Assembly: GCF_002305895.1 (NCBI RefSeq)
Contig: NZ_CP022203.1
Location: 7,536,001-7,600,000 of the forward strand
Origin: Corallococcus macrosporus DSM 14697
Lineage (GTDB): Bacteria > Myxococcota > Myxococcia > Myxococcales > Myxococcaceae
Reading direction: 5' to 3'
DNA: 64,000 nt
In this document: positions 16,107 to 26,124 of the stretch, in pieces
Layout of the letters: every line of letters starts with the position of its first letter
How positions within the stretch are numbered: position 1 is the first letter of the stretch
The notes under the pieces: generated by a model
The model's input: only the letters and a program-made list of their open reading frames with translations
The model's database searches: none
Told to the model about the DNA's origin: nothing
Translations under genes and position numbers: made by a program

Positions 16107-16475
16107 ATGCCCTCGCAGCCGTCCAAGGAACTGCAGACCTTCCCCAACCCCGCCGCCGACCGCGACTACGAAATCGCGTTCGACGTGCCGGAGTTCACCT
16201 GCCTCTGCCCGCTCACCGGTCAGCCTGACTTCGCACGGTTCAAGATCACCTACGTGCCGGACCAGACCTGCATCGAGCTCAAGAGCCTCAAGCTCTACAT
16301 GTGGGCGTACCGCAATGAGGGGGCCTTCCACGAGAAGGTCACCAACACCATCGCGGACGACATCATCAAGGCCATCCAGCCGCGCAAGCTCACCGTGGTG
16401 GGCGACTTCTTCGTGCGCGGCGGCATCGGCACCATCGTCACCGTCACGCACGACAAGTCGAAGCAGCAGGGCTGA
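16107..16475 (+). CDS. queF: NADPH-dependent 7-cyano-7-deazaguanine reductase QueF (short type)
   Basis: QueF reduces preQ0 to preQ1 in queuosine biosynthesis, the only known nitrile-to-amine reduction in metabolism. The 122-residue length fits the unimodular, GTP-cyclohydrolase-I-like T-fold. It carries [14 protein letters not shown], containing the covalent-catalysis Cys and the adjacent Asp, and [20 protein letters not shown], the QueF motif with the substrate-binding Glu. The ATG at 16107 matches family start length. It is convergent with the downstream kinase gene (15 bp between stops). A QueA-like gene lies at about 24 kb, but no other queuosine genes are present. Confidence 0.93.
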
Positions 16476-19135: not shown

Positions 19136-19843
19136 ATGCCGCGACGCACGTGGAGGGTGCTGCTGGTCAGTGGCGCGGTCGACGGTTGCGCGGCGCGCCC
19201 GGAGCGCTATGGGTTCGATTCGGCGACCAGCGCGTGCCGGCGGAACCCGGCGGCGTGCGCTCGGATGGCGGGCGAGGAGGCCGTCCTTCCTGGCTCCCGG
19301 GCCATGCGGGTGGCGGCGTCCATTGGCACCGCCGGGGACGCGGCGCTGCGGGTGCTTCGGGCTGAAGAGCGGGATGCCCTCGAGGAGGCCTTGTCACGAT
19401 GTGCCGAGGACGCCCGGTCCACGGTCCTGCTCGAACGCTTCCATGGCCGGAACCCCATGCCGGCGGAGTGCAGGGAAGTCGTGGACCGGGATGCCCACGG
19501 TCAGCCCATCACCTGGGCCATGAAGCTGGGCATCGAGATGCACCGGATGGCGCTGGACTGCGCCCGGCAGGAACTGAGCCAGCAACGCCCTGGAGGGTTC
19601 AGCCTGGAGCCGAGGTACCACCGCAATCCGCGAACCCAGGCCTGGGAGCCCCTGAGCAACAAGGAGGCACAGGCGCTCGTCGTGTACGACTTCAAGTTCC
19701 CCTGCCTGGGAGATGATCCGTCGAAGTGGCGGGTCTACCCCAGGGGACACCCGCATACGGGCCGAACGCAGAAGTTCATGTACGAACAGGCGGTGAGTGC
19801 GCCAGCCTTTCGCATCATCCCCCGGTGGGGAGTCTTGCCATGA
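19136..19843 (+). CDS. Putative polymorphic toxin with degraded REase-like nuclease domain
   Basis: A 235-residue protein. The ATG at 19136 has an excellent GGAGGGG site and starts a short signal-like region with Cys (VSGAVDGC), possibly lipidated though the lipobox is poor. The C-terminal half (about 115-235) matches a myxobacterial toxin domain I recall: a WAM.LG.EMH helix, GGFSLEPRY, then VYDFKFPC and RYP.GHPH.G..Q.FMYEQA. D-F-K is the D-x-K part of a PD-(D/E)xK nuclease. Relatives carry a PDVVI motif roughly 25 residues earlier, and here that segment seems absent. The stop overlaps the next start (ATGA), the classic toxin-immunity arrangement. The toxin role is inferred from domain and context. 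Confidence 0.65.
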   Translation: MPRRTWRVLLVSGAVDGCAARPERYGFDSATSACRRNPAACARMAGEEAVLPGSRAMRVAASIGTAGDAALRVLRAEERDALEEALSRCAEDARSTVLLERFHGRNPMPAECREVVDRDAHGQPITWAMKLGIEMHRMALDCARQELSQQRPGGFSLEPRYHRNPRTQAWEPLSNKEAQALVVYDFKFPCLGDDPSKWRVYPRGHPHTGRTQKFMYEQAVSAPAFRIIPRWGVLP

Positions 19844-20742
19844 CCGAGCACTACCCTCGCCTTCGCGTCCATGCCCGCAACGGGCGCCTCATCGTTCGGG
19901 AAGGCCTGCACATCTGCTTCTACATGCGTCAGCCACATGCCGCCGTGGCCCCGCATGTCCTGCGCGCCCTGGAGATTTTTCACGAAGCGGCAGGCGCCAA
20001 CGCCTTCGGCCGATACGCCGATTCCGAGGGGGACTGGCACATCCTGGATGCCTCGGGCTGGCAGCACGTCCGCGACGAACTCCAGGCCGACGACTGGGCC
20101 GTGGTCCGTCTCCAGAGCGCTCCTCACGAGGAATCACTCCACGCCTTCGAGTATCACGGGAAGGACCTCGAGGCCGTGGCCGAGGAGTCCCCAGGCGCAG
20201 TCACCGCGCTGGGGTTCTGGTTGCCCACCGAACGGCTGGAGGAATGGGGTCCACAACGCGTTCGTGAGCTCGCGCTCAACCTGGCGCAGCCCCTGCCCTT
20301 CTGTGCCGGACATGCGGGCCTCTCCTTCAACGGGGAACTCGACCTCGTGGGCGTCGAACAACAGACCAAGGCATGGCGCTTCCGCTACCCCGGACTCGAC
20401 ATCATCGACCTGCACGGGCTCTCCTGGAAGCTGGGCACACGGCTCCGAGGCCCTTCGTGGCTCACCTTCCTGGGCCAGCCAGTGCTGGGTGAACTGAACG
20501 GAGCCATGGCCCTCCAGTCCCGCCTGAGCGCGGCGGGCACCACGGTGCAGGCCCTGGATGAAGGCCGCGCGGTCGTCACGCTCGGGGAACGGCCCGAAGC
20601 CGGGGATACGGACCAGGGCAACCGACTCCCCGCCTATCGCGAGCTGGCCCGTGTGCTGGAGCCGTGGACGTACCGCGAGGAGCACCTCCGCGGCTTGGGG
20701 GCGGAAGCCCGGCGCCGCTGGGAGCGCCGCTTCCTCGACTGA
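19840..20742 (+). CDS. DUF3396-type immunity protein
   Basis: A 300-residue soluble protein of the DUF3396 type, a family commonly paired with polymorphic and type VI toxins as antidote. Visible family features are the HICFYMR segment near residue 26, ALGFWLPTE around 127, the LPFCAGHAGLSFNGE turn around 150-164, and GLDIIDLHGLSWKLG around 185 followed by GPSWLTFLGQP. Translation is coupled to the toxin by an ATGA overlap at 19840-19843. Third-position GC is visibly lower than in neighbouring housekeeping genes, consistent with horizontal origin. A specific match to this toxin is inferred. Confidence 0.75.
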   Translation: MTEHYPRLRVHARNGRLIVREGLHICFYMRQPHAAVAPHVLRALEIFHEAAGANAFGRYADSEGDWHILDASGWQHVRDELQADDWAVVRLQSAPHEESLHAFEYHGKDLEAVAEESPGAVTALGFWLPTERLEEWGPQRVRELALNLAQPLPFCAGHAGLSFNGELDLVGVEQQTKAWRFRYPGLDIIDLHGLSWKLGTRLRGPSWLTFLGQPVLGELNGAMALQSRLSAAGTTVQALDEGRAVVTLGERPEAGDTDQGNRLPAYRELARVLEPWTYREEHLRGLGAEARRRWERRFLD

Positions 20743-22506: not shown

Positions 22507-23727
22507 ATGAAGGCTGTCGTTTTCCATGGGATTGGGGACATCCGGCTCGACGACGTGGCGGAGCCCAGAATCGAGAAGCCGACGGATGCCATCGTCCGCC
22601 TGACGGCGAGCGCCATCTGCGGCACCGACCTCCACATGATTCGCGGCACCATGCCGGGCATGAAGCCGGGCACCATCCTGGGCCACGAGGGCGTGGGCGT
22701 CATCGAGGCGCTGGGTGACGACGTCCGCAACCTCAACGTGGGCGACCGGGTGGTCATCCCGTCCACCATCGCCTGCGGCAACTGCTCGTACTGCCGCGCC
22801 GGGTACCACGCGCAGTGCAACGAAGCGAACCCCAACGGCCCCAGCGCGGGCACGGCCTTCTTCGGCGGCCCCCAGCAGACGGGGCCCTTCCACGGCATGC
22901 AGGCGGAGAAGGTGCGGGTGCCCTTCGCGAACGTGGGCCTGGTGCGGATTCCGGATGGCGTCAGCGACGAGCAGGCCATCCTCATCTCCGACATCTTCCC
23001 CACCGGCTACATGGGCGCGGAGCTGGCGGAAATCAAACCCGGTGACACCGTGGCGGTGTTCGGCTGCGGCCCCGTGGGCCTCTTCGCCATCGTCAGCGCG
23101 AAGCTCCTGGGCGCCGGCCGCGTCTTCGCCATCGACTGCCACGAGGACCGCCTGGACCTGGCGCGGGCCCAGGGCGCGGAGGTCATCAACTTCGACGAGG
23201 AGGACCCGCTCGAGACGCTCAAGCGCCTCACCCACGGCATCGGCGTGGACCGCGCCATCGACGCGGTGGGCGTGGACGCCATGCACCCGCACCACGGCCC
23301 CGGGGCGAAGAAGGCCCACGAGGAGAAGGCCGAGTTCAAACGCGAGGTGAAGGAGGCCGCGCCCAAGACGAACCCCAAGGGTGACAACTGGGTCCCCGGC
23401 GACGCGCCCGCGCAGGCCCTGATGTGGGCCGTGGAGGGCCTGGCCAAGGCGGGCACCCTGTCCATCATCGGCGTCTACCCGCAGCAGGTGCGCACGTTCC
23501 CCATTGGCATGGCGATGAACAAGAACCTCACGATGAAGATGGGAAACTGCAACCACCGCAAGTACATCCCCAAGCTGCTGGAGCTGGTGCGCACCGGCGT
23601 GGTGGACCCCACGGCCATCCTGTCCCACGTGGAGCCCATGGGCAGCGCCATTGACGCGTACCGCAACTTCGACGTGCGCAAGCCCGGCTGGGTGAAGGTG
23701 GAGCTGGAGAACACGCAGCTCCAGTAG
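22507..23727 (+). CDS. Zinc-dependent alcohol dehydrogenase, glutathione-independent formaldehyde dehydrogenase-like
   Basis: A medium-chain dehydrogenase of 406 residues. The catalytic zinc site is Cys38 (ICGTDLH) with His60-Glu61 (GHEGVG). The structural zinc tetrad is Cys90, 93, 96 and 104 (CGNCSYCRAGYHAQC). The NAD-binding VFGCGPVGLFA lies near 183-193. The insertion after residue 258 (HPHHGPGAKKAHEEKAE...) is typical of formaldehyde-dismutating or glutathione-independent FDH relatives, longer than simple ADHs. It probably oxidises formaldehyde or small alcohols with bound NAD. The ATG at 22507 begins the fold at once. The 3' end is convergent with the QueA-like gene, 3 bp apart. Confidence 0.88.
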   Translation: MKAVVFHGIGDIRLDDVAEPRIEKPTDAIVRLTASAICGTDLHMIRGTMPGMKPGTILGHEGVGVIEALGDDVRNLNVGDRVVIPSTIACGNCSYCRAGYHAQCNEANPNGPSAGTAFFGGPQQTGPFHGMQAEKVRVPFANVGLVRIPDGVSDEQAILISDIFPTGYMGAELAEIKPGDTVAVFGCGPVGLFAIVSAKLLGAGRVFAIDCHEDRLDLARAQGAEVINFDEEDPLETLKRLTHGIGVDRAIDAVGVDAMHPHHGPGAKKAHEEKAEFKREVKEAAPKTNPKGDNWVPGDAPAQALMWAVEGLAKAGTLSIIGVYPQQVRTFPIGMAMNKNLTMKMGNCNHRKYIPKLLELVRTGVVDPTAILSHVEPMGSAIDAYRNFDVRKPGWVKVELENTQLQ

Positions 23728-23730
23728 GCC

Positions 23731-24756
23731 TCACGCATCCAGCAGCAGGCACGAGTCGCCGAACTCGTGCCCCAGGTAGCCGCGCGCCTCCGCGTGCGCG
23801 GCCACCTCCTGGAGCAGGGGCAGCGGCGCGAAGGCCTGGAGCAGCGCATGGTGGCTGCTGCCGGGCTCGTGCACGCCGGTGAGCAGCCCGTGCACCAGGC
23901 GCGGGACGAAGCCCGGCCCCAACAGCAGGTCCGTCACCTCCTCTCCCGCCACCAGCCAGCCGCCGTGCTGCGCCGCGCGGCCCTCCAGGGCCCGCACCAC
24001 GGTGGTGCCCACCGCCACCACCCGCCCGCCCAAGGCCCGCGTGTGCAGCACGGCCTCCACCGTGGCGGCGGGGAGGTCGGAGCGCTCCGGCCGGGGCAGC
24101 GCCGCGTCCAGCGCCGCGTCTCCCGTGGAGGACAGCCCCGCCGCGTGGGTGAGCGACGCCAGCCGCACGCCCCGCCGGCGCAGCGCCAGCAGCACGCTCC
24201 ACGTGAGCGGCAGGCCCGCGGACGGCGGCTCCACGGACCAGGGCCGCGCGCCATAGGCCGTCTGCACGTGCCACAGCGACAACGGCGCCTCCGTGTACGC
24301 GTACTGCACCGGGCGCCCGCTCCGGTAGAGCCCGGACCAGAGCGCCGCTCCCGTCGCGTCGAAGGCCACGCGCAGCAGGCGGGGGGACGGCGGCAGCACC
24401 GCCACCACCCGGGCCTTCAGCCCGCCCACCATGAGCTCCGCACCCTCGGACACCGCGGGCGGCGGTGGCCGGTCCTCCGTGCGCCGCCGCCAGTCCCCCG
24501 CGCCGAACAGCACCACCGTCCAGGTGCCGTCCGGCTCGCGAGACAGCAGGCGCAGCTCGATGCGCTCGCCCGACGCCGTCCTCCCCCACAGGGACGCGGG
24601 CAGGGTGGCGGCGTCGTTCACCACCAGCAGGTCCCCGTCGCGCAGCAGCGACGGGAGGTCCGCCACGCGCGCGTCGTGGAAGCGGCGGGCGCGCGGCTCG
24701 ACATGAAGCAGGCGGCCCTCGTCGGGGCGGTCCGCAGGCCAGCGCGCGGGCTTCAT
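23731..24756 (-). CDS. QueA-like S-adenosylmethionine:tRNA ribosyltransferase-isomerase paralogue
   Basis: A 341-residue protein with the QueA layout: DGDLLVVNDAATLPASL near 40-56, VQYAYTEAPLSLWHVQT near 158-174, LPLTWSVLLALRRRGV near 194-209, RVVAVGTTVVRALEG near 256-270, and the C-terminal TDLLLGPGF-(8)-TGVHEPGSSHHALLQAF. QueA makes epoxyqueuosine in tRNA from preQ1-tRNA and SAM. The central LHVGLGTF...H.MHSE stretch of true QueA is replaced here by LTHAAGLSST and PRPERSDLP, so the substrate may differ. Start ATG 24756 overlaps the SDR stop (ATGA), showing a two-gene operon. QueF at 16 kb shows the host does make preQ1. Confidence 0.72.
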   Translation of the reverse strand: MKPARWPADRPDEGRLLHVEPRARRFHDARVADLPSLLRDGDLLVVNDAATLPASLWGRTASGERIELRLLSREPDGTWTVVLFGAGDWRRRTEDRPPPPAVSEGAELMVGGLKARVVAVLPPSPRLLRVAFDATGAALWSGLYRSGRPVQYAYTEAPLSLWHVQTAYGARPWSVEPPSAGLPLTWSVLLALRRRGVRLASLTHAAGLSSTGDAALDAALPRPERSDLPAATVEAVLHTRALGGRVVAVGTTVVRALEGRAAQHGGWLVAGEEVTDLLLGPGFVPRLVHGLLTGVHEPGSSHHALLQAFAPLPLLQEVAAHAEARGYLGHEFGDSCLLLDA

Positions 24757-25481
24757 GCGGCCTCCAGCTTCGCCGCCTCCAGGCGGGTCCCCGAGGGCAC
24801 GGACTCCGCCTGCCACGCCACCCAGTCCACGAGCCGGGCCGCCACCGCCTCCGGCCGGCTCAATTGGGAGTAGTCCGCGTCCGGCACCGCGTCCCGGTAC
24901 ATCCGCGTGTCCATCTCCCCCGGGTCCACGGAGAAGAAGCGCACCCCGGTGCCCTCCAGCTCCGCGGCCCAGACGCGGCCCAGGTGCTCCAGCGCCGCCT
25001 TCGACACGCCATAGGCGCCCCAGCGGGGATAGGCCGACACCGCCGCGTCCGAGGTGATGCTCACCACCAGCCCCCTGCCCCGCACCGCCATGTTCCCCGC
25101 CACGGCCTTGGTGAGGCGGAAGGGGCCCACCACGTTGACCTCCAGCACGCGCTGCAGGTCCTCGCAGGCCGTGTCCAGCAGCAGCGGCAGCGGCGTGGGG
25201 CCCAGCGTGCTCGCGTTGTGGACCAGCACGTCCAGCGGGCCCACCAGCGCCGTCGCGGCGCCCACCAGCGGGTAGATGGCCTCCTTGTCTCCCACGTCGT
25301 AGGTCAGCGCGTGGGCGTCCAGGCCTTCCCAGCGCAGCGCCTCCGCCACGGCCTCCATCTCCGCGGCGTGGCGCGCCACGCCCACCACGCGCGCGCCCCG
25401 GCGGGCGAAGCCATTCATCAGCGCCAGGCCCAGCCCCCGGCTGGCGCCCGTAATCAGGATGCTCTTGTCGATGCGAACCAT
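24753..25481 (-). CDS. Short-chain dehydrogenase/reductase
   Basis: A classical SDR of 242 residues. The cofactor loop TGASRGLG lies at 11-18, NAS (residue 91 region) replaces the usual NNAG/NAG, catalytic Ser is in SITSDAA, and the YGVSK pair is near 156-160. The loop carries ARH after strand 2, compatible with NADP(H). Substrate unknown. It is the first gene of an operon with the QueA-like gene, and is divergent from the XRE-cupin regulator whose start is 86 bp away; this arrangement suggests control by that regulator. Confidence 0.85.
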   Translation of the reverse strand: MVRIDKSILITGASRGLGLALMNGFARRGARVVGVARHAAEMEAVAEALRWEGLDAHALTYDVGDKEAIYPLVGAATALVGPLDVLVHNASTLGPTPLPLLLDTACEDLQRVLEVNVVGPFRLTKAVAGNMAVRGRGLVVSITSDAAVSAYPRWGAYGVSKAALEHLGRVWAAELEGTGVRFFSVDPGEMDTRMYRDAVPDADYSQLSRPEAVAARLVDWVAWQAESVPSGTRLEAAKLEAA

Positions 25482-25528: not shown

Positions 25529-25563
25529 TTGGCGCCTGGGCCAAGGGCTTGGCAGATTGCCAA
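25529..25563. promoter_or_regulatory. Probable operator for the XRE-cupin regulator
   Basis: Just before the regulator start lies the perfect inverted repeat TTGGCA-GAT-TGCCAA (25549-25563). A weaker related pair, TTGGC ... GGCCAA, lies at about 25529-25544, one to two helical turns away. The position between divergent genes, 3 bp before the ATG at 25567, suits autorepression and control of the SDR/QueA-like operon. Function is inferred. Confidence 0.5.
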
Positions 25564-25566
25564 TCC

Positions 25567-26124
25567 ATGAACGACGATGACCTGCCCGGCAGGCTGGCCC
25601 GCAACATCCGCTCCCTGCGCGAGACGCGAGGCGCCACGCAGGCGCAGTTGTCCCGGCTGGCGGGCGTGCCTCGCGCCACCTGGGCCCACCTGGAGTCGGG
25701 CGCGGCCAATCCGACGCTGTCCGTGCTGCACCGCGTGGCCGCCGCGCTCCAGGTGTCGCTGGAGGAGCTGATCGCGAAGCCTCGCGCCAGCGCCCGGCAC
25801 TACCCCCGCACCACCCTGCCCGTCCGGGTGCGCGGCGGCGGCATGCTGCGCAAGCTGCTGCCGGACCCGCTGCCCGGCATGGAGTTCGACCGGGTGGAGC
25901 TGCCGCCTCAGGTGCGCGTCACCGGCGTTCCGCACACACCCGGCACGCGGGAGTACCTGGCGTGTGAGACAGGGGAGCTGGTGCTCGTGGCCAGCGGGGA
26001 GCGCTTCCTCCTCCAGCCCGGCGACGTCGTCGTCTTCCGCGGGGACCAGAAGCACTCCTACGAGAATCCTGGAGCACGGACGGCCGTGGGTTACTCGGTC
26101 GTCCTGCTGGCGCCTTCGATATGA
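25567..26124 (+). CDS. XRE-family transcriptional regulator with cupin domain
   Basis: A 185-residue protein with an N-terminal helix-turn-helix: RLARNIRSLRETRGATQAQL then SGLAGV-type turn (LSRLAGVPRATWAHLESG) and NPTLSVLHRVAAALQVSLEEL, residues about 8-70. A C-terminal cupin barrel (about 105-180) has GTREYLACETGELVLVASG and LQPGDVVVFRGDQKHSYEN, including a Gly-Asp and His of the metal site. Such regulators sense a small molecule in the cupin and control neighbouring metabolic genes. No clear ribosome site is visible; the message may be nearly leaderless, with the operator overlapping the start. It couples to the DUF4230 gene by an ATGA overlap. Confidence 0.85.
   Translation: MNDDDLPGRLARNIRSLRETRGATQAQLSRLAGVPRATWAHLESGAANPTLSVLHRVAAALQVSLEELIAKPRASARHYPRTTLPVRVRGGGMLRKLLPDPLPGMEFDRVELPPQVRVTGVPHTPGTREYLACETGELVLVASGERFLLQPGDVVVFRGDQKHSYENPGARTAVGYSVVLLAPSI

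Follow-up and report, generated by a model that had tools for sequence, protein, structure and literature searches.

The closest described relative of the protein considered here, the queuosine enzyme QueA, uses S-adenosylmethionine (SAM) in an unusual way, namely by transferring its ribosyl part, and its substrate preQ1-tRNA is supplied by Tgt. Archaea are not known to have queuosine. Another described system of relevance is that of non-enteric SoxR which, according to two papers, responds to redox-active compounds and acts directly on its target genes (PMC8859910, PMC3534580). Searches of the PMC literature, a scope that leaves most subscription journals outside, gave no description of a QueA paralogue of the kind presented below, of its operon or of its link to SoxR, and no paper in which the listed targets of SoxR include an enzyme of the QueA family.

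Such a paralogue, called Q2 in the following, lies together with a reductase of the SDR class in the window, that is, the whole stretch of 64,000 nucleotides of Corallococcus macrosporus DSM 14697 DNA that was analysed. The features of the window and of its source genome (contig C1) that enter the comparison are these:

16110-16475 (+): QueF-II, unimodular, preQ1 synthase (181 bits, cut-off 86.9)
23731-24756 (-): Q2, QueA-fold paralogue of 341 aa (PF02547)
24753-25481 (-): SDR reductase of NADPH type, 242 aa (PF00106, 153 bits)
25549-25563, between regulator and SDR: dyad TTGGCA-N3-TGCCAA, candidate operator, conserved in the Myxococcaceae alignment
25567-26124 (+): XRE-cupin regulator of 185 aa, divergent from SDR-Q2 (HTH_31 and Cupin_2)
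C1:5784107-5785174: canonical queA, next to tgt
C1:7633604: QueC

Because the genome, a single contig of 8.97 Mb, carries a separate canonical queA next to tgt, the cell does not depend on Q2 for a queA gene to make queuosine with, and Q2 is to be regarded as a genuine paralogue. The first-pass annotation of this DNA had described a QueA paralogue in an operon with an SDR and had proposed a search for a second, canonical queA; both the operon, in which the SDR stop overlaps the Q2 start (ATGA), and the second gene are borne out, so that the alternative of no other queA in the genome does not hold. It was also right in recognising a true QueF at 16 kb and in concluding that preQ1 is made, given the presence of QueF and QueC in this genome, a conclusion that has no bearing on Q2. 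The QueF-II gene belongs to the normal queuosine pathway and is unlinked to Q2, from which it is 7 kb away. Other genes in the vicinity encode a TsiV-type immunity protein (19726-20742, +; PF11876, 191 bits) and a zinc alcohol dehydrogenase (22507-23727, +), the latter convergent with Q2, from whose stop its own is separated by 3 bp; its top NCBIfam model is glutathione-independent formaldehyde dehydrogenase, at 186 bits against a cut-off of 637.

Q2 matches PF02547 with 171.6 bits (cut-off 25) and misses all three curated QueA equivalog cut-offs (138 vs. 324, 109 vs. 267 and 47 vs. 588 bits), as do three more members of its family. Invariant or nearly invariant residues are common to Q2 and canonical QueA (N47, A180, E224, G250, T251, R255, E258, H296, G333 and D334), whereas eight others are fixed in Q2 only (T51, Y152, E176, S179, G294, H302, H330 and E331; 98-100% in 83 paralogues), canonical QueA having at these positions, in the same order, V, P, A, T, N, L, F or other, and S. 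Most residues of the motifs that are invariant in canonical QueA (PTAGLH, GTF, TNFH and FSYGD) are replaced in the 83-row paralogue set. The earlier statement that the GTF/H.MHSE stretch is missing is accurate, the canonical GTF and H.MH residues being replaced, with the qualification that both families retain the glutamate of the stretch (E224). The AF2 model of Q2 (mean pLDDT 96.3) finds full-length structural matches only in the QueA structures 1wdi, 1vky and 1yy3 (Z 24.9-26.2), with rmsd values of 7-9 Å that suggest a probably different orientation of the domains. Net charge, considered because a shift could indicate that RNA binding has been lost, does not distinguish Q2 from its canonical counterpart (20 genome pairs, Wilcoxon p 0.48) and was dropped, as it gives no evidence of such a loss. 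Q2 has more histidines, on average 12.4 against 9.65 (p 0.014), an excess to which the invariant positions H302 and H330 contribute.

An eight-row alignment used to scan GTDB genomes returned at least 593 pattern matches, at least 578 of which encode relatives, and the best 80 were taken for further analysis. Four plasmid loci and the window were added to these and two short rows removed (L054 and L061, excluded also from the conservation counts), giving the 83 Q2 rows that were compared with 21 canonical QueA rows in a phylogenetic tree. The phylogeny of the paralogue, also proposed earlier, sets Q2 apart: a branch supported at 100/100 separates all canonical rows (21 of 104) from the others. 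The Q2 rows come from Myxococcota, Acidobacteriota, Planctomycetota, Alphaproteobacteria, Chloroflexota, Bacillota, Actinomycetota, Verrucomicrobiota, Fibrobacterota, Deinococcota, Cyanobacteriota, the archaeal Thermoplasmatota and others; since many of them are metagenome-assembled genomes (MAGs), single placements may be due to contamination. Four rows from Thermoplasmata cluster with one another. Within a single genus (g6) the presence of Q2 is patchy, as it is missing from two of the 16 genomes. Homologues are plasmid-borne in 32 Rhizobium records, a location which suggests that Q2 is an accessory, transferable trait; the gene order is SoxR-SDR-Q2 in all three Rhizobium plasmid loci inspected (L033, L034 and L036).

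The SDR is the partner of Q2, as shown by linkage. A same-strand SDR lies upstream of Q2 in 113 of the 114 loci that have at least 750 bp of upstream sequence (76/77 named loci and 37/37 from evenly drawn Actinomycetota), seven of the 84 named loci being too short to enter this count (L042, L051, L054, L058, L061, L067 and L068). Conversely, the window SDR used as query matched none of 20 loci of canonical queA (4.2-6.5 kb each); with these two counts side by side, the pairing is not due to chance. As sole query the same protein matched 78 of the 84 Q2 loci, and five of the six misses have less than 400 bp upstream. The sixth, L069, which is the only roomy Q2 locus without an SDR in any forward frame, sits at the end of a MAG contig. 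In a Scytonema MAG (L113, 5255-5491) the SDR is only partly open next to an intact Q2, possibly reflecting a recent loss of the reductase. The overlap between SDR stop and Q2 start recurs in 55 of 78 loci (31 ATGA and 24 GTGA). In 74 complete operon SDRs the residues of the N116-S144-Y157-K161 tetrad and R37 are conserved to 97-100%, and the tetrad taken together with the TGxxxGxG motif to 95-100%. None of the 25 NCBIfam matches listed for the window SDR reached its cut-off, and the promiscuity of SDRs is such that the class cannot name the substrate. Both the SDR and the XRE-cupin gene are present in all 30 Myxococcaceae loci considered (the best 30 matches, the window's own included), while in Bacillota Q2 is followed at 24 loci by a small gene of VOC/glyoxalase fold, one of which was examined with Pfam.

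The regulators next to the operon differ between clades. The loci of Alphaproteobacteria and Actinomycetota have SoxR as their divergent gene; two representatives scored 187 and 209 bits against TIGR01950 (cut-off 117). The dyad core AAGTNNACTT, of SoxR type by the SoxR-box consensus, occurs exactly in 18 of the 25 intergenic regions of SoxR-linked loci (0.01 expected from shuffles), and in 24 of the 25 when up to one mismatch is allowed (0.74 expected). A SufR-like regulator is found at loci of Thermoplasmata, Acidimicrobiia and some other groups; the two that were tested score 100-110 bits with TIGR02702 and thereby miss the cut-off of 179. The loci of Nonomuraea and Streptomyces have instead a GAF histidine kinase pair, and those of myxobacteria the XRE-cupin protein, with the dyad TTGGCA-N3-TGCCAA kept in an alignment of 30 Myxococcaceae loci and present once in the window (0.03 expected). 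The claim that the pair is under an XRE-cupin regulator therefore stands as far as two features carry it, the divergent position of the regulator gene and the conserved dyad. Since the window operon has this regulator and no SoxR, redox control would apply to it only by analogy with the other clades. One other exact copy of the dyad exists in the genome (C1:109302, i.e. L174 1501-1515), about 105 bp upstream of a different SDR gene; with approximately 0.5 such sites expected, as estimated from 12 fixed bases, the dyad was dropped as a regulon marker.

The distribution of Q2 was then compared with that of the queuosine pathway in an even draw of 198 Actinomycetota genomes, in which canonical QueA (at least 340.6 bits) and Q2 (at most 277 bits) were separated by their PF02547 score alone, a fragment of 297 bits in G291 being counted as canonical. 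Tgt is present in all 104 genomes with canonical QueA, 11 of which hold both types, and in none of the 28 genomes that have full-length Q2 alone; the five genomes with only a fragment of Q2, kept apart from the 28, lack it too. All 37 Q2 regions taken from this set have the SDR. Ten of the 198 genomes have Tgt without any PF02547 protein and are candidates for preQ1-only metabolism or queuine salvage. A second set of 50 genomes, all with Q2, includes 32 that also have canonical QueA and 18 that miss it. Among the latter, 13 are without Tgt above the cut-off and five possess it; these five are all MAG records, possibly incomplete, and they count against a clean split. Five of the 13 are named isolates, namely three of Geodermatophilus, Pseudonocardia terrae and Streptomyces sp. 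PH10-H1. The search for QueC gave only noise-level matches in the three Geodermatophilus and in Pseudonocardia (23-24 bits over about 60 of 210 positions), while Streptomyces sp. PH10-H1 has a real QueC. Of the 20 Q2 genomes tested for MnmG, which is required for aminomethyl-uridines, 15 have no match to it or one no better than noise, including all five named isolates, and nm5U34 of tRNA was consequently ruled out as acceptor. Likewise, preQ1 outside tRNA was ruled out because of the noise-level QueC matches in Geodermatophilus and Pseudonocardia. Given the lack of Tgt in Q2-only genomes and of QueC and MnmG in isolates, neither preQ1-tRNA nor nm5U-tRNA can be the common substrate of the family. 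The possibility raised in the first-pass annotation that Q2 acts on a different nucleoside or small molecule gains support from the 28 Q2-only Actinomycetota without Tgt and from the four named isolates that lack QueC and MnmG as well.

These results bear directly on what Q2 may do. The suggestion, also made earlier, that its product is a modified queuosine, for which preQ1-tRNA or epoxyqueuosine-tRNA would be the starting material, could draw on the presence of the queuosine pathway in the window's genome and of canonical QueA in 32 of the 50 sampled genomes; yet Tgt is missing from all 28 Q2-only Actinomycetota and QueC from four named isolates, so that members living without a queuosine pathway leave this idea unsupported, indeed refuted as a function common to the family, and very improbable in general. 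Even more improbable is that Q2 merely duplicates QueA, or is decaying from it, without a separate role. Occasional decay is suggested by G065, where Q2 is fragmentary, and by G007, where it has an in-frame TAG, but the locus evolves under purifying selection (dN/dS 0.14-0.39), the family-specific residues are invariant and the operon is fixed across phyla. We thus consider it almost certain that Q2 constitutes a separate, selected family that has an SDR for its partner and no tie to queuosine.

Among the roles that such a family could have, modification of an RNA nucleoside other than preQ1 or aminomethyl uridines, perhaps under oxidative stress and with the SDR finishing the modification, would be in keeping with the action of QueA itself on tRNA and with the equal net charge of the two proteins. 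We regard it as unlikely, considering that both aminomethyl wobble nucleosides that can be named are unavailable in the three Geodermatophilus and Pseudonocardia (no Tgt; QueC and MnmG at noise level or absent), and that SoxR regulation and the pairing with SDR and VOC proteins resemble small-molecule chemistry. Slightly less doubtful, though still improbable, is a two-step synthesis by Q2 and SDR of a protective or signalling metabolite from SAM, for which redox stress would merely be the cue. The retained QueA core and the redox-type regulators of several clades agree with such a synthesis, and so does the fact that in many phyla the two genes stand by themselves and have hardly any further neighbours in common, an arrangement to be anticipated where the two substrates are metabolites found in most cells; however, the patchy occurrence, seen for example in genus g6, fits an accessory defence equally well.

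The explanation that we favour, tentatively and at somewhat less than an even chance, is that the pair forms a redox-induced operon unrelated to queuosine, in which SAM-dependent Q2 and the reductase modify a small molecule and thereby disarm redox-active or electrophilic compounds. Its parts deserve different degrees of confidence. The QueA fold and the invariant core make it most likely that Q2 still uses SAM, and we are reasonably confident that it retains SAM-based chemistry, in which case it would take the ribosyl part from this cofactor as before. That its substrate is a small molecule, rather than preQ1-tRNA, appears probable to a marginally lower degree; the acceptor would be bound by Y152, E176, H302 and H330-E331. 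The upstream SDR would act in a coupled, NADPH-dependent step in which either the substrate or the product is reduced (or oxidised), the glyoxalase-fold protein presumably acting as a helper in Bacillota. Redox sensors would switch the operon on, this being the role of SoxR in Alphaproteobacteria and Actinomycetota and of SufR-like Fe-S regulators elsewhere; in myxobacteria the XRE-cupin protein would take their place, with a redox signal assumed only by analogy. Disarming redox-active compounds would be the likeliest purpose of the operon, an assignment that we hold with slightly less than even confidence. A more specific version, in which Q2 moves the rearranged ribose of SAM, in the manner of QueA, onto redox-active toxins reduced by the SDR and so caps their electron-cycling group, with induction by the toxins via SoxR or another Fe-S sensor, is speculative and rather unlikely as formulated.

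Whatever its substrate, Q2 very probably does a job that has not been recognised before. Its annotation as a queuosine enzyme is misleading, given that the family is present in bacteria without a queuosine pathway, and pathway reconstructions that rely on PF02547 will assign queuosine to organisms that lack it. A second family with the QueA core, a fixed reductase and redox control in several clades would extend SAM-ribosyl chemistry beyond tRNA and indicates a stress pathway that can be tested in strains of Myxococcus, Rhizobium, the Bacillus group and actinomycetes.

In comparison with known systems, the operon SDRs resemble classical members of PF00106 in the N-S-Y-K tetrad, the TGxxxGxG motif and the arginine of NADPH type, and differ from the one unrelated SDR compared in sharing W154-G155, D186 and P210. 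The Q2 loci with a divergent true SoxR and SoxR-type boxes (24 of 25 with at most one mismatch) are akin to the redox genes under SoxR control in non-enteric bacteria, whereas other Q2 clades, including that of the window, have other regulators. With respect to QueA (PF02547; TIGR00113/NF001140), Q2 shares the fold over its whole length and the invariant core residues, but the canonical PTAGLHF, GTF, HxMH, TNFHLP and FSYGD give way to PSAG, SS, TGxHEP..SH and HEFGD; it lies far under the equivalog cut-offs, is independent of Tgt and has an SDR partner, accompanied in several clades by regulators of redox type.
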